From the IMG/VR virus record IMGVR_UViG_3300005618_000021, positions 1-55,129 of that record: DNA of 55,129 nt; one strand, written 5' to 3'. Under the pieces are notes generated by a model. It saw only the letters and a program-made list of their open reading frames with translations, did no database searches and was not told the origin of the DNA. Below are positions 1,319 through 52,098 of this stretch, piece after piece. Every line of letters starts with the position of its first letter. Within the stretch, counting starts at the first letter, position 1. The position numbers were made by a program, and so were the translations under genes. The stretch comes from a virus.

Positions 1319-1846
1319 ATGCAATCTCAGGCTACCCGAGCGGCTCGTTTCTGGGCGAAGGTGGCACGCGGCAACGATTGCTGGCTATGGCAGGGCGGCC
1401 GTAACGCGCGTGGCTACGGGATGGCCGCAAACGGCAAGAAAAGTGGATTCATACTTGCCCATAGGTTCAGTTATGAGTTGGCCTATGGATCTATCCCACC
1501 AGGGCTGCACGTCTGCCACCATTGCGACAATCCTCCTTGTGTTCGACCAGACCATCTCTTTGTCGGCACCGATGCTGACAACATCGCGGATATGCTGCGT
1601 AAGGGCCGTTACGGTCCTCCTCGCCCCGTATTACGCGGCGATGCCAGTTGGTCGCGAAACCATCTCAATCGGTTGGCACGCGGTGAATCACATGGCCTTG
1701 CCCGTATCACAGCGACTCAAGTGCTTGAGATGAGACGACTACGGGCTGAGGGCAAGTCACTTAGCGAACTCATGACCGCGTTCTCGATGAGCAAGTCTCA
1801 GACGTTTCGCATCATCACTCGCCAGGCTTGGGCGCACATTCCTTAG
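1319..1846 (+). CDS. HNH homing endonuclease with C-terminal HTH
   Basis: 175 residues. The N-terminal half carries the phage HNH_3-type layout: a WLWQGG segment, then HRFSYELAYG, then HVCHHCDNPPCVRPDHLFVGT, which supplies the metal-binding His/Cys and HNH residues. The last third (TATQVLEMRRLRAEGKSLSELM onward) is a resolvase-like helix-turn-helix, as often attached to homing nucleases. AAGGGAG precedes the ATG by about 9 bases. It is transcribed against the surrounding late operon and its last four bases overlap the end of the holin-like gene, which suggests a selfish insertion between the lysis genes and their terminator. Confidence 0.85.
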   Translation: MQSQATRAARFWAKVARGNDCWLWQGGRNARGYGMAANGKKSGFILAHRFSYELAYGSIPPGLHVCHHCDNPPCVRPDHLFVGTDADNIADMLRKGRYGPPRPVLRGDASWSRNHLNRLARGESHGLARITATQVLEMRRLRAEGKSLSELMTAFSMSKSQTFRIITRQAWAHIP

Positions 1847-7525: not shown

Positions 7526-8223
7526 GGCGGTGGCATCATGAGCGGCGTGGTCATCTGGACGGCTGGCCCCAATCCTGGCGGGAGACTGGCTCCTCCTGCC
7601 GCAACTGACTGCAAAGCAAGTTGAAACCCTTTGACTGCTCCGCCGCTACCAGAGATATTGAACGTCGCGGCTCCAATGGTTGACGCTGTCGCTACCACGA
7701 GGTCTGCTACGCCAACTTCATTGCCAGCGGCATTCTGCCGAAAGGTATAGCCACCTGGCACAGCGCCGAACGACGAGATGGCGATGTAGTTGCAGAACGC
7801 GACCGCAGTGGTGTCTACGGTCGTCGTGATGTCAGTCGGGGTAGCGAACGTCTGCGAGCCGGTCGCAACTGTGCCTTCTGTCGGCGCAGTCGGAGCGTCC
7901 GGATCTAGCGGGTTTTCTCCGACAACGGCGCCCGAGTAAGCCAACATAATGCAATCGCGCCAGGTCGAAGCGAAATTGAACGTATAACTGGCCGGTTCTG
8001 AAGCCGCACGTTTCCACGCGATGTACATGTGAAACGAGTTCGCCGTGGCATTTGCGATGACGTTCCACGTCCCTGCGACATCAGTAACAGCACCCGTGGC
8101 GTCCTTGGACATGAAGAACAACAGAATGTCGTTGTCGGCTGTTCCTGCCGGAACGTTGCACGTGACATTGGCCCCCGTTGCTCCGCCTGCGTTCGCCTTT
8201 TGCCGGAACGCTGGGGAGGCCAT
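7522..8223 (-). CDS. Tail-fibre-like beta protein
   Basis: 233 residues, Ala/Thr/Gly-rich with beta-sandwich features (GTADNDILLFFMSKD, SYTFNFASTWRDC, FNISGSGGAVKGFQLALQS). Such sequences are common in phage fibre and adhesin subunits. The C-terminus is a Pro-rich tail (PPGLGPAVQM...MMPPP), perhaps a flexible linker. It is coupled to the lectin-like gene downstream by an ATGA overlap. A structural role is inferred from composition and position. Confidence 0.65.
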   Translation of the reverse strand: MASPAFRQKANAGGATGANVTCNVPAGTADNDILLFFMSKDATGAVTDVAGTWNVIANATANSFHMYIAWKRAASEPASYTFNFASTWRDCIMLAYSGAVVGENPLDPDAPTAPTEGTVATGSQTFATPTDITTTVDTTAVAFCNYIAISSFGAVPGGYTFRQNAAGNEVGVADLVVATASTIGAATFNISGSGGAVKGFQLALQSVAAGGASLPPGLGPAVQMTTPLMMPPP

Positions 8224-8226
8224 GCG

Positions 8227-8541
8227 TCAGCCGATGTTCCAATCCACGCCGTCGAGCCGTCCGTTCGTCGCGTTGACGAACAACTCCATTCGGTTAGCGG
8301 CGTTAGTGGGAATCACCTGAACGAACTCGACTGCGCTCGGTCCACCGGGCGGCTCAGTTCGGGAGAATGTTCGTCCATTCTTGAGAACCGTAGCCTGGGC
8401 AGGGAGTGGCACATCAGTTGAGTTGTTGAACATGCGGACAGCCGTCACGAAAAGCGTCACATCGTCATAGTCGTAACTCACTCGCCGCACCGTGCCGTCC
8501 AGCGCAATGTCCTCAAACTTGACCACATTCACCGTCGCCAT
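8227..8541 (-). CDS. Small structural protein, unknown
   Basis: 104 residues, beta-rich (VRRVSYDYDDVTLFVTAVRMFNN; MELFVNATNGRLDGVDWNIG). ATG 8541 shares one base with the stop of the gene at 8541-8726 (TGATG). It may form an accessory layer on a fibre with its neighbours. No recognised family. Confidence 0.55.
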   Translation of the reverse strand: MATVNVVKFEDIALDGTVRRVSYDYDDVTLFVTAVRMFNNSTDVPLPAQATVLKNGRTFSRTEPPGGPSAVEFVQVIPTNAANRMELFVNATNGRLDGVDWNIG

Positions 8542-8726
8542 CAGGACTCCACGAGCTCCACGGTAAGCGCCTCAAAATCGACATGGTTGTTGATCTGAAT
8601 ACACGCCTTCTCAAGATGGCGCAGCGCGATGACGCGGTCTGACCAGCGAACAGGACGGTCGATGTGCAGGTTGCTCGTGGTCACTGTCAAGCGAAGCGCT
8701 ACGGGCGGATGTATGGCTCCAGGCAT
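8541..8726 (-). CDS. Small protein of unknown function in tail operon
   Basis: 61 residues from ATG 8726, chosen because AAAAAGGAGGTG lies six to seven bases upstream; an in-frame start at 8750 would bypass that site. The sequence is mixed alpha/beta with no Cys and no membrane segment. It sits between a glycosyltransferase and a small structural gene. Function unknown. Confidence 0.55.
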   Translation of the reverse strand: MPGAIHPPVALRLTVTTSNLHIDRPVRWSDRVIALRHLEKACIQINNHVDFEALTVELVES

Positions 8727-8746
8727 AGACGCACCTCCTTTTTCGC

Positions 8747-9457
8747 TCAACCGATCAGGGCACCGTTCGTCTCTGGCGCGCCGTACCGCAACGCTTGATA
8801 GACGGCTTCCATGTTGACCACGTTCAGCCGCGCGAGCACCTCATGGCCAATAGCAATGGACATATCGAGGTAGACCTTGAATCCTAGGGCACGCGCACGA
8901 TTGCAAAAGTAGTAATCCTCCGACAGGTTGTTGAAACCGCCAGCCTGCGGATCGTTCTCAACCCCAAATCCGAACAACGGCCAGAATCGCCACGAGGCGT
9001 TGCTGTTGCATTCTGGCAGCACCTCGACCATCGCCGCGATCACCTTTCGGTGAACGGCGAAGAACCCGGTTGCCACGTGGCGCATCTCCAGTGGCTCGAG
9101 GTCAGGGCCAAACCTGAGCAGTGATTCGCCCAGCGTCCGAATCGCCAGATGGCTGGCGTCGCCAGTAGGGTAGGCCGCGGCAATCACGTCATGCCCGTCA
9201 CGGCACCGCTCAACAATGCCGTTGGCGTCGTCGGGATCGAACACGATGTCATCGTCGACCATCAGGAAGACATCATCGGTCGTCTCGCGAAACCATTTGG
9301 ATGCCTGGATGGAGCGGGCACGGTTGATGCCCGCCTCACCCCCGAGTTGCTCACGCCACTGGTTCGGTCCAGGCGTCGTGAGCAGTTTCGTGATACACCC
9401 GTGCGTCGGCAGACTGACCGACCGGTACGCACAGACAATCAGTGTGGCGGTGCTCAA
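8747..9457 (-). CDS. GT-A fold glycosyltransferase
   Basis: 236 residues from TTG 9457, which overlaps the stop of the GIY-YIG gene (TTGA). TATLIVCAYRS opens the nucleotide-binding strand, and FLMVDDDIVFD near residue 65 is the DxD-type metal/sugar-nucleotide motif; a later NNLSEDYYFCNRARALGFKVYLD segment resembles the catalytic-base region of family-2-like enzymes. It would transfer a sugar from a nucleotide donor in the cytoplasm. Its place among tail-fibre genes suggests a tail or virion protein as acceptor; that is inference. Confidence 0.8.
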   Translation of the reverse strand: MSTATLIVCAYRSVSLPTHGCITKLLTTPGPNQWREQLGGEAGINRARSIQASKWFRETTDDVFLMVDDDIVFDPDDANGIVERCRDGHDVIAAAYPTGDASHLAIRTLGESLLRFGPDLEPLEMRHVATGFFAVHRKVIAAMVEVLPECNSNASWRFWPLFGFGVENDPQAGGFNNLSEDYYFCNRARALGFKVYLDMSIAIGHEVLARLNVVNMEAVYQALRYGAPETNGALIG

Positions 9458-10254
9458 ATAGCTGTCTCTTTCAATCGGTCACGGCGGCGGATGTAGTGCT
9501 CGTGAGCCTGCCGTTTTGTACGTTCTGGATCACGTGCATAGTAGTCACGACGAGCCTTGCGCTGTGCTTCGAGTTGCTCCGGTGTGAGATTGGCAACTGC
9601 ACGTCGCTTATGGTCAGCCTCGCGTTTGAGTGCTGCGCGGGCCTGGTCATACGCGCGTTTCTGCTCCTTCCGAGCGGCCGCATAGTCGCGCATCTGAGCA
9701 GTGAGGCGCGGTTTGTTCGCTTTGTAATGAGCCTTGACTGCTTGTCGTCTGGCTTCGCGTTGCTCAAGAGTTTCCTTTGCATACACGCCAGACACTCGCT
9801 CGGCGTTGCATACACGACAGATGCGCTTGCCTGCTTTGCCACGGTAGGTATTCGCGTTATCGTAGACGTGACCCTTCGGGCACGCGATGATCTTCGCCAC
9901 GCGTTCTGCGATGGCTCTCCGAATATTCGCCAAGCCCTCCGGCGTATTGCGCGCACCAAGCCGGGAACCAGCGACCGGACAGATATTGAAGGCTGGCTGG
10001 AGCGCTTCGAGATATTCCTGCTCACGATCAATGAGGTCGACTCTGTCGCACTCATCAATGACGTAGAACCTGAACGCCGTCGCGCCATGCTTCGTCCATG
10101 CGTTCTGGAGGAATCGGCTGTGATGCGTACCAGCGTTCAGTTGTCCGCGATGCCTGTACCAGCGGTTCTCTATGTTGGCGCTACTACCGATGTAGAAGCG
10201 ATCTGTCCCAATTTGCTCGATTACATAGATCCCGCACCTATGCTTGCCTGGCAT
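9454..10254 (-). CDS. GIY-YIG homing endonuclease
   Basis: 266 residues. CGIYVIEQ and RFYIGSS near the N-terminus form the GIY-YIG motif, followed by RWYRHRGQLNAG (catalytic Arg) and FRFYVIDECD...REQEYLEALQPAFN (catalytic Glu and Asn). Residues about 120-165 hold a C-x-KGH...C-x2-C zinc-finger-like element, and the rest is a long basic Lys/Arg/Ala helix region expected to contact DNA. It lies between a structural gene and a glycosyltransferase, typical of a free-standing mobile endonuclease. A hairpin at 10256-10280 can mask its ribosome binding site. Confidence 0.9.
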   Translation of the reverse strand: MPGKHRCGIYVIEQIGTDRFYIGSSANIENRWYRHRGQLNAGTHHSRFLQNAWTKHGATAFRFYVIDECDRVDLIDREQEYLEALQPAFNICPVAGSRLGARNTPEGLANIRRAIAERVAKIIACPKGHVYDNANTYRGKAGKRICRVCNAERVSGVYAKETLEQREARRQAVKAHYKANKPRLTAQMRDYAAARKEQKRAYDQARAALKREADHKRRAVANLTPEQLEAQRKARRDYYARDPERTKRQAHEHYIRRRDRLKETAI

Positions 10255-10255
10255 T

Positions 10256-10280
10256 CCATCCCCTCATTAAGAGAGGATGG
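10256..10280 (-). promoter_or_regulatory. RNA hairpin masking the GIY-YIG Shine-Dalgarno
   Basis: On the minus strand CCATCCTCTC (10280-10271), a five-base loop and GAGGGGATGG (10265-10256) form a 10-bp stem with one G-U wobble. The 3' arm is the Shine-Dalgarno of the endonuclease, two bases before ATG 10254. Phage T4 homing endonucleases are known to be translationally repressed this way in read-through transcripts. Confidence 0.65.
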
Positions 10281-10318
10281 TACCAGCCTTCAGGATGCGG
10301 CGTCTATTTTGTGACGCG

Positions 10319-10945
10319 CTAGATTGCCCCCGAGATGTAGGGTGCGATGCGCTCGCGGTGGAGGGTTTTACGATTGGAACGGTGGTGTCGATGGCTCTTT
10401 CCGCCACCATCGCCTAGATCGGCCGTTTGTAACGGGAGTGTAACGGCCGGTTCATATATGATATGGGCTCCTGTGAGCCCCGCAGTACCGCCGGTGAATG
10501 CGCTCAGTGACACCTCGCCCAGTGACGCGGTGTTGCCAATGGTCGACGGCTCCTCGCCTGGAGCTGCAACCCAGCGCACGATGCCACCGAAGGCGTTGTA
10601 CGACAGGTTGAGCAAGTGCAAGGTCGTCGAACGCTGCGGGTTGGTACCAGCGATGGTGAAGCCAATCGGTACGACCGACAGGACCGAATGCGTACCGTCC
10701 AATGCGGCTTGCATGGCGCCCGACGTACTCGACAGGGTGACACCCACGGTCGAGTCGCGCGACAACAGCATGAACGTTGGCGAGCTGGCACCAGCCTGGC
10801 CACCAAGATAGACCTCGATGAACGTGAGCCGCTGCGTGGCGTTGCCGCCCTGCACAGCCATGTACGAGCCATTGGCCAGCGCGGTCGCCGCGTCAGCCGT
10901 GGCAGTGGGCGTGAACGTCGTGAATGAATAGGAGAACTTGGCCAT
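10319..10945 (-). CDS. Virion structural protein, Ala/Thr/Ser-rich
   Basis: 208 residues. Low-complexity beta-rich N-terminal region (SYSFTTFTPTATADAATALANGSYMAVQGG), then a segment recognisable as a small jelly-roll-like structural domain. The last 30 residues switch to a His/Arg/Lys-rich tail (KSHRHHRSNRK). The composition of the main domain resembles the protein at 20248-20607. It probably decorates the virion. Confidence 0.6.
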   Translation of the reverse strand: MAKFSYSFTTFTPTATADAATALANGSYMAVQGGNATQRLTFIEVYLGGQAGASSPTFMLLSRDSTVGVTLSSTSGAMQAALDGTHSVLSVVPIGFTIAGTNPQRSTTLHLLNLSYNAFGGIVRWVAAPGEEPSTIGNTASLGEVSLSAFTGGTAGLTGAHIIYEPAVTLPLQTADLGDGGGKSHRHHRSNRKTLHRERIAPYISGAI

Positions 10946-10957
10946 GGTGAGGGCGTC

Positions 10958-11185
10958 TTACCTTTCAGAATGCGTCAATAGCGACGGATGAACAGGACCG
11001 CGGAACATACTGGTCTGTTCGGCCAGTAGCAACTGATAGTGGCGTACATCCTCCTTGACATCTGTCCATGTGCAGAGAGGACAGAGTCCCTCTGGAGTGG
11101 GGTAGTTGACACCATCGAAACGGTGACCAGTCTCGCAGTAACGACCTTCCAGGAGCGTGCGCTGCTCCTGTGTCAGTCCAGTCAT
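10958..11185 (-). CDS. Small Cys/His protein of unknown function
   Basis: 75 residues. YCETGH and LCPLCTW supply a possible Cys/His zinc site. ATG 11185 overlaps the stop of the upstream zinc-ribbon protein gene (ATGA), so the two are likely made together. No family recognised. Confidence 0.6.
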   Translation of the reverse strand: MTGLTQEQRTLLEGRYCETGHRFDGVNYPTPEGLCPLCTWTDVKEDVRHYQLLLAEQTSMFRGPVHPSLLTHSER

Positions 11186-11535
11186 AACGGCTTACCAGGG
11201 ACCAGGAGGGGACTGGTGGGCAAAGCGTGGAATTTGCCGTCTGAAATAGCGTCGGCCAACTGTTCGAACGGCTCACACCACAGGTTGTGGTTATCACACA
11301 CGACTTTCATGCACTTGCGACAGACTTCACGCTCACGCGTGCGTTCTGGCCGCTTGAGTACGATGGCATGGCAATGCGCACAGGTCCATGTGTCCACCTC
11401 GACCGCGGTGCTGCCAGGCACCGGTATGCCTCCGAGCGCGGCTACCTGCGGTGCCATTGCTTCGGGGATACCAGGCGAGTTGCGGTGATCGATAATCAGG
11501 TACCCGTTATGCCCTCCAATCTTGGTTGAGGCCAA
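11182..11535 (-). CDS. Conserved phage zinc-ribbon protein in tail region
   Basis: 117 residues from TTG 11535, supported by AAAAGGAGG nine bases before it. The N-terminal HNGYLIIDHRNSPGIPE block and the central DTWTCAHCH...REREVCRKCMKVVCDNHN block with four to five Cys match a small protein family often seen in phage structural operons. The two Cys-x2-Cys pairs imply a zinc ribbon. Its job is unknown. Confidence 0.7.
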   Translation of the reverse strand: MASTKIGGHNGYLIIDHRNSPGIPEAMAPQVAALGGIPVPGSTAVEVDTWTCAHCHAIVLKRPERTREREVCRKCMKVVCDNHNLWCEPFEQLADAISDGKFHALPTSPLLVPGKPL

Positions 11536-11558
11536 ATTGCCATCCCTCCTTTTAGGTG

Positions 11559-12164
11559 TTAGCCAACGAACTGCACACTGCTACGGCCACGAGAACCGAG
11601 GTACGCGAGTTGAAACATGAATGACGCCCAACGTCCGAGTGATAGTGCGGGCCTCGACGAGTCCGTTGGTATTGCAACTGCGATGAGGTTGTCGCCAATG
11701 ACGAGACTTGCCTGAAAAAACGCGTTCGTCAATCCAGCACCGAAACCCAGTCCATTGACGTACGACACATTGGCGGTCCCTTGCTGGTCTATCAGTGCGA
11801 ACGTTCCATTCTGCAAGCCTGGCGATATGTGATCAGACCGCACAAGATCACCGGCCGGCACATTCAAATGAAAGCGGTACAGCATCACTCGCTCGGGGAC
11901 TATCTCGACCGGTGAGATCCACAACGGGTCACCCCACGGTTGGGTAGGAGGCGTGGCGGCAGGATTGTCGGCCGGCGGGAATGGATCGGTACCCAGTGTT
12001 GCCACCACCGGGGCGGTCCAGAAACTATCGTCGAAAGCTGGCTGTTCCCATCCTGGCGGCGGGAACGTACTGCCTTGTCGATACGACGACACTTTGCCTT
12101 CGCCCGCAATGGTCGATGTCTGTACATATGTGACACCGTCTATGGTGGATATAACTGTCGGCAC
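11559..12164 (-). CDS. Tail-associated beta protein, sugar-binding-like
   Basis: 201 residues from GTG 12164. GWEQPAFDDSFWTAPV followed by VMLYRFHLNVPAGDL...TFALIDQQGTANVSYVNG resembles the galactose-binding-like jelly-roll modules (discoidin/GH2 N-domain type) found in phage fibres and glycosidases. Tail operon context suggests a baseplate or fibre adhesin. The fold assignment is inference from motif spacing. Confidence 0.6.
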   Translation of the reverse strand: MPTVISTIDGVTYVQTSTIAGEGKVSSYRQGSTFPPPGWEQPAFDDSFWTAPVVATLGTDPFPPADNPAATPPTQPWGDPLWISPVEIVPERVMLYRFHLNVPAGDLVRSDHISPGLQNGTFALIDQQGTANVSYVNGLGFGAGLTNAFFQASLVIGDNLIAVAIPTDSSRPALSLGRWASFMFQLAYLGSRGRSSVQFVG

Positions 12165-28451: not shown

Positions 28452-28791
28452 CGTTGTCACCATCGAGCATGAACCAGATCGCTTCAGCAACCTCCTCTGG
28501 ATCGACATCGGTTCCTCGTAAGTCCCAGCGCAACCCCCCGTCATACCAAGCCGTAAGATCGAGCCCAGGAAACTCACTACACACGCGCGCCATCAAGGTA
28601 AGTGCGTCCAAACCACCCCGGCGCCGTACCACAAAGTCAACGTAGAACGAATTCGCCTCGACCTGGGCCTTGGTGGGATTCTCGTGCCCCTCACAACTAC
28701 TGGACGTGGAAATACTCGGAATGCAATTCAAAGCCTCAACTAACGACCGAATGCCTTCGTCGATCTGGATTGCTTCTCGCGCGGCAGTCAT
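28429..28791 (-). CDS. Conserved unknown with SSCEGH motif
   Basis: 120 residues. IRSLVEALNCIPSISTSSSCEGHENP resembles a small protein family whose signature is SSCEGH/SCSGH, followed here by FYVDFVVRR and a C-terminal acidic helix. The Cys and His may bind a metal. Start overlaps the HNH endonuclease stop (ATGA). Function unknown. Confidence 0.65.
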   Translation of the reverse strand: MTAAREAIQIDEGIRSLVEALNCIPSISTSSSCEGHENPTKAQVEANSFYVDFVVRRRGGLDALTLMARVCSEFPGLDLTAWYDGGLRWDLRGTDVDPEEVAEAIWFMLDGDNDGETVED

Positions 28792-29699
28792 GACGGCACC
28801 TGCGGCAGCGCACCAAACAAGCGCTCATACTCGGCCAATCTCTCGGCCATAGACAGTTCGCGTCGTTTGCGATCCGCCGCAGTCTTCCACGTGTGGTGCG
28901 TCGGATCGAGGATTTGCAGGTTGTCCAACCGGTTGTCGGTTTTGTTCTGATTCTTGTGGTCTACCTGCTCACGCGTATCGAGCACCCGCCCTAGCGACTG
29001 CTCCACAATCCAGCGGTGCTCAAGGACATGACCATTACGGCTAGCCTTGGGATGCGTTGGCTCGTAGATCGTGTAGTAGCCCTGAGCGTTTAGGAGAACC
29101 GGCCGTCCATTATGTTCGCGACCCGTTGGCCGCTTGATGGAAGCGAGTGCCCCATGCGCTCTGCAACAATACTTCCGCGTATCACTTGGTCGGCGCGGTA
29201 ATACCTTAGGGCAACCGTCTAATGCGCATGCCACCATGCGCCTGACCTTCTTGAATGACTCGTAGGCACACGCCTTCGAGTGAAACCGACGGTTCTGCTT
29301 TATATAGGCAGGTTGACGGTAGAACAACCTACCGCACCCCTCGCACGGGATGGTGTCACCCGTACGCGGTCTGCGGGGGTGAGCGTATCCCCCGCGCTCC
29401 TGACGCTGGCGCATGTTCCATTTAGCTCGACACGCCATTGAATGGAACCAAGGGCGCTCAGCATTCTTCTCATTGACGTACCGCACGACCTCAACGCTGC
29501 ATTCAGCACAGGGCCTTGCTTCAATCAGCCCGCGATATCTATTCGGCTCGCGAGAGGCGCTAGCGCCCTGCGGCATGTGTGGCCGCTGACAGTCCCTATC
29601 GCAGAACCATCTGGCTCCGCGCGCTTGAGACAAATAACGAGTCAGCAGTTTTCCACATGTCGCACAGGGCCTAGTCGCCTTTTCTCCTCGAACTGGCAT
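28788..29699 (-). CDS. HNH homing endonuclease with several zinc fingers
   Basis: 303 residues. Four Cys-x2-Cys...Cys modules lie in order (PCATCGK...CDRDC; PCAECS...MACR; PCEGCGR...KAC; CALDGCPK...CCRAH), followed by the HNH core HVLEHRWIVEQSLGRVLDTREQVDHKNQNKTDNRLDNLQIL near residue 240. It lies between the major capsid gene and small head genes, a classical target for free-standing endonucleases. The start is within an RBS-masking hairpin at 29699-29725. Confidence 0.9.
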   Translation of the reverse strand: MPVRGEKATRPCATCGKLLTRYLSQARGARWFCDRDCQRPHMPQGASASREPNRYRGLIEARPCAECSVEVVRYVNEKNAERPWFHSMACRAKWNMRQRQERGGYAHPRRPRTGDTIPCEGCGRLFYRQPAYIKQNRRFHSKACAYESFKKVRRMVACALDGCPKVLPRRPSDTRKYCCRAHGALASIKRPTGREHNGRPVLLNAQGYYTIYEPTHPKASRNGHVLEHRWIVEQSLGRVLDTREQVDHKNQNKTDNRLDNLQILDPTHHTWKTAADRKRRELSMAERLAEYERLFGALPQVPS

Positions 29700-29725
29700 A
29701 TACGCTCCTTACACAGGAGAGTATA
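29699..29725 (-). promoter_or_regulatory. RNA hairpin masking the HNH Shine-Dalgarno
   Basis: Minus-strand TATACTCTCCT (29725-29715) pairs with AGGAGCGTATA (29709-29699), with one mismatch and a five-base loop. The 3' arm holds most of AAGGAG, the site five bases before ATG 29699. It would block translation from read-through mRNA made for the capsid genes. Confidence 0.65.
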
Positions 29726-29738
29726 CACCAGTCACCAC

Positions 29739-31064
29739 TCACAATCCAGTAACTTTTGCGAAGACCGCTGGTCTCCACACAACGAATGCCACCCGGAGTT
29801 CGGCAAGAATTGTCTGCATATTACGTACGAACTGATCGTTCACTGTCCCCACTCTGACCGCGCCTTGTTCGCGATCGTAGAGGGTCGCGCCCTGCTGGAA
29901 GTCTCCGACCAGGCCCGTGCCCGTGGTGATATTCGGATCTTCGACGACCGGAATGCCCCACAGCGTGGGTGCACCCATACCCGACGGCGGCCCGAACAGA
30001 TACGAGCCTGGCGTCGCGGTCGATGCCGATTCACGTGCCAGACGGATCGTTTGCCAGTCAGTCGGATTGAGCGCATACGCTGATGCTCGACCCAGACCCG
30101 TCCAGTTGACGAGCGTGCGGCCCTTGTACAGCGCGTCGATCTGACTGTCAGTGCCCTTGCCGACAACGCCAATGCTCGCCGTGTTCAGGATGCCGGTCAG
30201 GTTTTCACCGGTGCCGTCACCAGACACGACCTGCGACTGGAGTTTCTGCTGGAGGCCGAACAGAAGCCGGCCATCGATGATGCCACGGATCGCCGGCGCA
30301 TCAGCCAGCATCCGGTTGGTGACCGGAATCCAGTGTGCCAGCGTGCGCACCGTAGCCGTCTGGGTGCTGTACGCCAGCGCAGACTCTGGCTTGAGGCCCG
30401 TGCCCGTGCCAGTAGCAAGTGCTGATGCCGTGAAGCCCGTTGCCTCAGCCACGAACGCCGCGGCATTGGTGAACGTATCCTCACGAACGTACTCGATAGT
30501 GTCGCTCGAGGTCTGGTTGCGTGAGATCAGATCGATGAAGTTCAGCGGCGCCTGGAGCAAGTCGATGAACCCCGGCTGATGGTCCTCGAGCACGAACGGA
30601 CCGCCAGACGTGGACGAGCCGCCACGTAACAGCGTCTTCTGCTCTGCCCATTGCAGCATCGACGTTCCCTCGGCCATCGTCACGCCGATCTCGACGCGAC
30701 TCAGGTTCGAATCGAACATCTTGCGCTGCTTGGCCGCGCGATAGTCCATGCTCGCCAGAAACTGACGACCTGGGGAAATGCGCTTGCCCTCGGCATCCTG
30801 CTCGTCACCCTCGTACGTTGGGCGTGCGCCCGGAGCTGGCTTGCTCACGCGCTCATAGGACGACAGAATGCGTGCTCGTCGCTGCTCGGCATTCTCGATA
30901 TCGTTCAGTTTGGTTTCGAGCGTGGTGATTTCGTCGAGCAGTTTCACCTGCTCTTCGCGTTCCTCGTTCGGCATCTCCGTGTCGAGATACTTCTTTTCAC
31001 GCAGGTCGGCCTGCTCAAGTCGAGTTTTGAGCTCTGCCTGAGCCTCCGCAATAGTCATAGACAT
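29739..31064 (-). CDS. HK97-fold major capsid protein
   Basis: 441 residues. The N-terminal 100 residues are a charged coiled coil (LREKKYLDTEMPNEEREEQVKLLDEITTLETKLND), the delta scaffold removed by the protease. The mature body contains PFVLEDHQPGFIDLLQAPLNFIDLI, IEYVREDTFTNAAAFVAEATGFTAS and LAHWIPVTNRMLADAPAIRGIIDGRL, all standard HK97 landmarks. Follows protease by six bases. Confidence 0.95.
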   Translation of the reverse strand: MSMTIAEAQAELKTRLEQADLREKKYLDTEMPNEEREEQVKLLDEITTLETKLNDIENAEQRRARILSSYERVSKPAPGARPTYEGDEQDAEGKRISPGRQFLASMDYRAAKQRKMFDSNLSRVEIGVTMAEGTSMLQWAEQKTLLRGGSSTSGGPFVLEDHQPGFIDLLQAPLNFIDLISRNQTSSDTIEYVREDTFTNAAAFVAEATGFTASALATGTGTGLKPESALAYSTQTATVRTLAHWIPVTNRMLADAPAIRGIIDGRLLFGLQQKLQSQVVSGDGTGENLTGILNTASIGVVGKGTDSQIDALYKGRTLVNWTGLGRASAYALNPTDWQTIRLARESASTATPGSYLFGPPSGMGAPTLWGIPVVEDPNITTGTGLVGDFQQGATLYDREQGAVRVGTVNDQFVRNMQTILAELRVAFVVWRPAVFAKVTGL

Positions 31065-50983: not shown

Positions 50984-51345
50984 TGCTCCAACTCCTTGGC
51001 CATGGCGCACCACGACCACACGACCAGGCCAAACAGCAGGTAGACGGCGATGGCGGCTGGGGTGGTGGTCCCTTCGGCCTTAGCGATGGCCTTGCGAATA
51101 AGCGCAACGGGACGCATCGCTTCAGGCGGGTGTTCTGCTACCAGCACTTCGAAGTACTCCAATGTCGCCCTGAGCGCCTCGTACATCTCCGGTGCGGCCG
51201 CGATCAGGGAGGCGTCGGCTTCAGTCGTCCAAACGTCGGCTATCCACGTTGGCTCATCCGTTGCAGCCCACACCTGCCACGTGTCGGCGGTCGGTCCGCT
51301 GTCTACTCGCCACGGTCCAGGGGTCCACCTAGGCTGCGAGGACAT
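50980..51345 (-). CDS. Ead/Ea22-like protein with C-terminal hydrophobic helix
   Basis: 121 residues from ATG 51345 with AAAGGAAG upstream. TPGPWRVDSGP and DASLIAAAPEMYEALRATLEYFE are the standard signature of short early phage proteins in this family. The end (AAIAVYLLFGLVVWSWCAM) is an unusual added membrane helix. Function unknown. Confidence 0.7.
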   Translation of the reverse strand: MSSQPRWTPGPWRVDSGPTADTWQVWAATDEPTWIADVWTTEADASLIAAAPEMYEALRATLEYFEVLVAEHPPEAMRPVALIRKAIAKAEGTTTPAAIAVYLLFGLVVWSWCAMAKELEQ

Positions 51346-51826
51346 CGGACTTCCTTTCGTTGCAGTCAGCGCAGGCGAGGACGATGTTGGTTGCGGTGTG
51401 CTGACCTCCGCGTGCTCGCGGTACCCGATGGTCGAAGCCACGCGGATCGTGAGGATTCAGGCGGACGCACCTCACCAGTGCATTGCAGTAGTGGCAACGG
51501 CCCTGTGCCGCATGGAGAATCGCGGCTAGTTGTTCGCGAGTAACGTCACCACTAGCTAGCCATTCGATCCTGCGTCGCCATGCCATCTGGGTTGTTTGCG
51601 GGTTCCGTGCACGGCGTTCGCGCTTGTGACGCACCATGCGGGCACGCCCGGCTGGCGTCTTTTCCATGCGTCTCTTCAAGTTGCGAGCGGCGTCAGGATT
51701 CTCCGCTCGCCATTTGCGCGTTGCTAAGGCTGCACATGGCAAACAACGAGCCTTGCCATTGACCTGGCCCGACCAGCCGCAGCGCTGGCAGACGTAGGAG
51801 ATCGGCCCCGGTGTATGCCCGCTCAT
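51329..51826 (-). CDS. HNH endonuclease
   Basis: 165 residues from ATG 51826 (ATGA overlap). N-terminal YVCQRCGWSGQVNGKARCLPCAALATRKWR is a zinc knuckle plus basic helix; RCHYCNALV...FDHRVPRARGGQHTATNIVLACADCNERKSD is the full HNH motif with two Cys pairs. It may nick DNA in replication or packaging, or be mobile. Unlike the other nucleases it is coupled within the operon and has no masking hairpin. Confidence 0.85.
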   Translation of the reverse strand: MSGHTPGPISYVCQRCGWSGQVNGKARCLPCAALATRKWRAENPDAARNLKRRMEKTPAGRARMVRHKRERRARNPQTTQMAWRRRIEWLASGDVTREQLAAILHAAQGRCHYCNALVRCVRLNPHDPRGFDHRVPRARGGQHTATNIVLACADCNERKSDVLAA

Positions 51827-52098
51827 AGAGCCCACGACCACGGGCCTCGGCTCCCGACGCAGTGCTCACGCACCGGCCGAACGCCGTAGTAGTTCGTATC
51901 CGCTACCGGCGCGTCTGGTTCGAACTCTCCTTCCGCAATCTTCTCGACGATGGTCAGGTCGTCACGGGCCTGCTGGAGTTGTCGGCGTGCGATGTCGTAG
52001 CGGATCTGCGCCAGCGTGAGCGTGGACTGCCAGTACGGCATCTCGTCCTGGGCCTGCTGCGGCGTGCTGGGCAAAGAGGGCTTCTCTGCGAGGCTCAT
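51823..52098 (-). CDS. Small helical early protein
   Basis: 91 residues. PSTPQQAQDEMPYWQSTLTLAQIRYDIARRQLQQARDDLTIVEKIAEGEFEPDA forms two helices with a charged link. Coupled on both sides. No family recognised. Confidence 0.6.
   Translation of the reverse strand: MSLAEKPSLPSTPQQAQDEMPYWQSTLTLAQIRYDIARRQLQQARDDLTIVEKIAEGEFEPDAPVADTNYYGVRPVREHCVGSRGPWSWAL

Follow-up and report, generated by a model that had tools for sequence, protein, structure and literature searches.

How a selfish gene can persist within an essential operon and yet escape overexpression driven by it is a general problem, and it is raised here by one ORF of the window (the whole stretch of viral DNA that was analyzed, 55,129 nucleotides). 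An initial annotation had read this ORF as a GIY-YIG endonuclease gene lying inside the late tail operon, with its ribosome-binding site (RBS) masked by a hairpin. The assignment to the family is correct: the encoded protein matches Pfam PF01541 with 38.8 bits (cut-off 22.6), and a profile built from four relatives recovers the solved I-TevI catalytic domain with an E-value of 1.2e-15. The GIY and YIG motifs and the residues R31, H35, E78 and N90 are kept across four to seven relatives. Among the closest copies, dN is about 0.25-0.36 with saturated dS, and the copies are under purifying selection. The operon location also agrees with the earlier reading, the portal, capsid and tape-measure-type genes all being encoded on the same minus strand of a phage that carries an integrase gene.

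Features of the GIY-YIG locus and of the second endonuclease locus in the window
Feature	Position	Strand	Remarks
Free-standing GIY-YIG homing endonuclease gene (putative), 266 aa	9454..10254	minus	Pfam PF01541, I-TevI domain profile, dN
Upstream structural-operon (tail-region) gene	10319..10945	minus	Residues 168-208 (10319-10444) lie beyond the stop of most relatives
Glycosyltransferase-like gene, downstream	8747..9457	minus	Directly after the tail-region gene in endonuclease-free L006 and L007
Predicted hairpin masking Shine-Dalgarno (SD) sequence and start codon	10248..10286	minus	16 bp, 2-nt bulge
Parts of this hairpin	5' arm 10286-10271; loop 10270-10266; 3' arm 10265-10256 and 10253-10248; bulge 10255-10254	minus	
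SD sequence GAGGGG	10260..10265	minus	Fully within the stem
Candidate extended -10 element TGGTACCAT	10277..10285	minus	Inside the 5' arm; ends 22 nt before ATG
Putative transcription start	10268..10272 (about 10270, first loop base)	minus	7 nt past the -10 box
Second, unrelated homing endonuclease gene (HNH_3)	28788..29699	minus	Pfam PF13392, 38.7 bits; same leader layout
Major capsid gene	29739-31064	minus	Directly upstream of the HNH gene; Phage_capsid, 140.4 bits
Predicted hairpin of the HNH leader, enclosing AGGAG and ATG	29692..29732	minus	
TATACT	29720..29725	minus	Only minus-strand copy in the window; 5' arm of the HNH hairpin; ends 20 nt before ATG

The endonuclease gene is inserted between the tail-region gene and the glycosyltransferase-like gene in the window and in three relatives (L005, L009 and L014), and empty alleles, with the flanking genes adjoining, are found in two others (L006 and L007). 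Another relative, L045, has a 46%-identical copy after a homologous tail-region gene, and more distant GIY-YIG genes occupy the same place in L029 and L032, which gives the site the look of a hot spot. Both flanking ORFs are complete. A group I intron or another known RNA at the insertion was considered and rejected: for positions 8000-12000, Rfam gave no group I or group II intron up to an E-value of 5, the only matches being two weak and unrelated ones. The endonuclease thus appears to lie outside any self-splicing intron, and we regard the gene as a presumably selfish, homing, free-standing and polymorphic insert, with cleavage and preferential inheritance as its putative activities. Isolated phages gave no DNA match and protein matches of up to about 42% identity, and two genome scans for a bacterial host returned no match.

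The surroundings show two further peculiarities. In the window and in L005 (3222-3347) the tail-region protein continues 41 aa past the stop of the other relatives; this extension is moderately conserved (HRHHR-NRKT--RER--PYISGA), and most of the differences fall on third codon positions. At 22-28 kb and 36-41 kb of the window, the structural genes on the minus strand are interspersed with blocks of glycosyltransferase, aminotransferase and sugar-nucleotide genes, one NTP transferase being assigned by Pfam and the other genes judged by eye.

The stem had been described as 10 bp with one G-U pair, covering an SD sequence two bases before the ATG, and it is found exactly so, with the coordinates (10256 versus 10254) in place. 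This inner stem, CCAUCCUCUC (10280-10271) paired with GAGGGGAUGG (10265-10256), closes a UUAAU loop. Past the bulge, six additional pairs (10286-10281 with 10253-10248) form an outer part that takes in the U and the G of the start codon, so that SD and AUG are both sequestered by the predicted hairpin. Three points go beyond the initial annotation: the start codon is included in the stem, a candidate promoter lies in its 5' arm, and another, unrelated endonuclease gene of the window is built alike.

The folding check that had been proposed yielded a stable hairpin: the minimum free energy was -28.2 kcal/mol for a 61-nt stretch around it (z -3.3, with equal stability in 2 of 200 shuffles) and -43.8 for 88 nt (z -6.2, matched by none of 200). 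As a measure of masking, we used the free-energy cost of opening positions -14 to +3 around the start. For the GIY-YIG leader this cost is 23.6 kcal/mol. Shuffling the upstream sequence alone gives 9.8 +- 3.1 (0/200 reaching the native value), and 76 further genes called in the window give 9.7 +- 3.3. In a survey of opening cost against shuffles, covering 84 endonuclease leaders and 676 other leaders of the same loci, its z of 5.7 ranked first among the 760. Given these statistics, the differently built hairpins of the closest relatives described below and the position inside a minus-strand structural operon, we consider it highly probable from the modelling that the hairpin masks the RBS, as had been suggested.

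The hairpins of the window, L005, L009 and L014 differ in sequence, and each of them covers SD and start. Opening costs are 23.4 for L005, 22.3 for L009 and 17.1 for L014, in each case above all 200 shuffles. When 5' arms were exchanged among the four leaders, values of 23.6, 20.2, 22.0 and 19.2 with their own arms changed to averages of 8.6, 7.2, 8.3 and 11.7 with foreign ones, a drop that is expected under compensatory evolution. L045 is weaker: it is mainly the AUG that is paired, and its opening cost of 9.6 was reached by 26 of 200 shuffles. By the same comparison no significant hairpin was seen in relatives L029, L032 and L047, so in this small sample of relatives the hairpin marks one endonuclease clade and not all; the three GIY-YIG genes examined from isolated phages (L265-L267) had no significant hairpin either. 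The notion that hairpins of this kind are universal among homing endonucleases was rejected, a z above 3 being found in only 5 of 84 endonuclease leaders versus 9 of 676 controls.

An internal promoter had also been suggested as something to look for, specifically a late one. The minus strand of the window contains the sequence TGNTANNNT three times. In all five GIY-YIG copies (window, L005, L009, L014 and L045) this sequence is present, with its end 15-24 nt from the start codon on the upstream side. The boxes read TGGTACCAT in the window, TGATACCCT in L005, TGATATACT in L009 and L014, and TGATACCAT in L045, and they lie in or beside the 5' part of the hairpin in all five, the L005 box being in the apical part and not in the arm proper. 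L009 and L014 share TTTGTGATATACT exactly despite saturated dS, and it is the one sequence element common to their leaders. The motif TGNTA[TC][AC]NT is present in 11 of 83 endonuclease leaders versus 2 of 676 other leaders of the same loci, making it about forty times commoner, and hairpin and box occur together in 7/84 versus 1/676. Because motif and joint test were defined after the cases had been seen, and related leaders do not count as independent, the p-values should be taken as indicative only. A transcript modelled from the putative start would keep the SD and lose the 5' arm, with an opening cost of 2.9 versus 23.6 kcal/mol at full length; across the window, L005, L009 and L014 the predicted short transcripts cost 1.9-4.9.

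The search thus returned a good extended -10-like candidate, but not the late phage promoter: the T4-type late promoter (TATAAATA, used by the phage late sigma) is replaced by TGGTACCAT here and by TATACT at the HNH gene, and a strict sigma-70 -35/-10 scan found no promoter at the candidate site and no -35. The boxes of the window and L005 are weak as -10 elements, and the promoter rules of the host were assumed. A wider search of viral contigs with the pattern TTGTGATATACT...AGGAG mostly hit ordinary phage genes without strong hairpins; the box alone is therefore not endonuclease-specific. On balance, we think that the 5' arm of the hairpin probably contains an internal promoter.

The second case in the window is the HNH gene behind the major capsid gene. 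Its leader, ACTGGTGTATACTCTCCTGTGTAAGGAGCGTAT followed directly by ATGCCAGT, folds into a hairpin that carries the box in its 5' arm. In its homologue L140, which is 63% identical and likewise follows the capsid gene, the hairpin is a different one, and TACACT takes the corresponding position. The other two HNH genes of the window (1319-1846 and 51329-51841) lack the full layout. The layout apparently arose separately from T4, and twice in one genome.

We therefore favor, as a likely account of the locus, an insulated insert that is silenced on read-through mRNA and made from its own embedded promoter. The selfish GIY-YIG gene, inserted between two genes of the structural operon, would be insulated from that operon: read-through mRNA would fold the hairpin over SD and start codon, and ribosomes would rarely initiate in vivo. 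A host-type promoter in the 5' arm, with an extended -10 and no clear -35, would start transcription near the loop, giving a short mRNA with the SD present and the 5' arm missing, which would be translated. Expression of the endonuclease would then track its own promoter and not the transcription of the operon. Since the boxes resemble ordinary bacterial -10 elements, expression would probably be early or constitutive, unlike the late timing of T4.

The logic of a hairpin combined with an internal promoter is known from I-TevI, I-TevII, I-TevIII, segB and mobE of T-even phages (PMC2988022). In the T4 lysozyme gene e, likewise, the long mRNA is masked and a short mRNA from a promoter within the 5' strand of the structure is translated (PMC3014915). 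The initial annotation had drawn the analogy with T4, and its geometry holds. I-TevI of the T4 td intron is also a GIY-YIG enzyme with a hairpin over SD and AUG and a promoter box overlapping the 5' arm. Run through the same script as a positive control, the I-TevI leader of a T4 relative had its box ending 23 nt before the AUG, compared with 22 here, and its opening cost fell from 15.2 to about 1.5, so both show a large predicted drop. What does not carry over is the promoter class. I-TevI is intron-encoded, has a T4 late promoter and belongs to a T-even phage, whereas the present gene is free-standing, has an extended -10-like box and lies in the structural operon of an unrelated, integrase-carrying phage. 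T4 segB and Aeh1 mobE, likened here by description, are free-standing between phage genes and have an RBS-sequestering hairpin (PMC2988022, PMC3014915), but they belong to T-even phages with late timing, and mobE is of the HNH class; gene e differs in that it is no mobile element but serves lysis for the phage itself, and its promoters are late ones. On paper, then, the present leaders are predicted to work like the T4 ones but without one of their defining features, the T4 late promoter.

An insulated gene might also do without a promoter of its own. The gene would then be near-silent in operon mRNA, with rare breathing of the hairpin, RNase cleavage or leaky initiation yielding the small amount required for homing, and the -10-like boxes being there by chance. 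The strength of the hairpin on its own, the weakness of the boxes in the window and L005 and the negative strict promoter scan all suit such an arrangement. We nevertheless consider it unlikely: five GIY-YIG leaders and two of the HNH type have the box at comparable spacing, its enrichment over neighboring leaders is about fortyfold, and it is the single element that the L009 and L014 leaders have in common. A DNA operator is very unlikely as the main explanation of the dyad. I-TevI autorepresses by binding its promoter (PMC2988022) and the dyad overlaps the candidate promoter, so the endonuclease could in principle do the same here, the RNA fold being a by-product; however, the arms differ between copies whose proteins are 58-65% identical with pairing retained, the stems contain G-U pairs, and SD or AUG is always inside. 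The operator role is compatible with the promoter-in-hairpin model, and the two could coexist.

We regard the two remaining explanations as extremely improbable. A GC-rich stem-loop soon after a stop codon invites the reading that the upstream tail-region gene ends in an intrinsic terminator or an mRNA-end hairpin, but a U tract is found on neither strand, a terminator scan of 9300-11300 was empty, and the 3' arm holds SD or AUG in every close relative. As for chance pairing in GC-rich DNA, ordinary genes do also reach high values (9 of the 676 controls, as above), yet the leader has the top z of the whole survey, and the hairpin recurs in relatives with a different sequence.

Returning to the masked leader with an embedded promoter, the design has been described for endonucleases of T-even phages (PMC2988022, PMC3014915) and is met here in an unrelated phage carrying an integrase; its presence, with a host-type box, at two unrelated endonucleases of one genome suggests a recurrent solution. 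We tentatively raise the possibility, somewhat less probable than its negation, that at least two unrelated families of phage homing endonucleases (GIY-YIG, HNH and possibly LAGLIDADG) independently evolved a self-contained switch, with a host-type promoter in the 5' arm of an RBS-masking hairpin, which frees them from any operon into which they insert. A promoter so close to the ATG that the mRNA is leaderless would be a sister solution in other HNH genes. If true, homing cassettes would generally bring along their own regulatory insulation as a portable component, and its timing would differ from that in T4. The leader is a simple module and provides a search rule: a -10 box that overlaps an SD hairpin and has its end roughly 20-24 nt upstream of the start.

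Several leaders elsewhere touch on this design. Among the structural genes of L087 there is a LAGLIDADG-like gene, weakly matched by Pfam, whose start falls within a hairpin of roughly 20 bp (2120-2200), with TATCCT ending 20 nt before the ATG. It may represent a third family of endonucleases that uses the promoter-in-hairpin design. HNH-type genes in L097 (2294), L120/L121 (2207) and L093 (2183) have TG-N-TATACT or TGATACCAT 6-8 nt before the ATG; these boxes would give leaderless mRNAs, possibly another uncoupling from read-through transcription. The strong hairpin of L102 was rejected as an RBS mask, as it looks like the terminator of the previous gene. An endonuclease-free site in L007 (4500-4560) has a promoter-like box and a hairpin, TATACTGGCG...CGCCAG, perhaps the remnant of a lost endonuclease.

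Other leaders of this kind precede different genes. The repeated leader TTGTGATATACTTG(T/C)CTTGTCC(T/C)GAGAGGAGG(A/G)C(A/G)AG, directly followed by ATG, combines a promoter box with an RBS hairpin and stands before different genes of several viral contigs (L186 5576, L178 4419, L205 1385 and others). A conserved gene of 144 aa, found in L164, L162, L146, L193 and L228, carries TATACTCCT-AGGAGG, with a small SD hairpin beside the same box, and the design is thus not limited to endonucleases.
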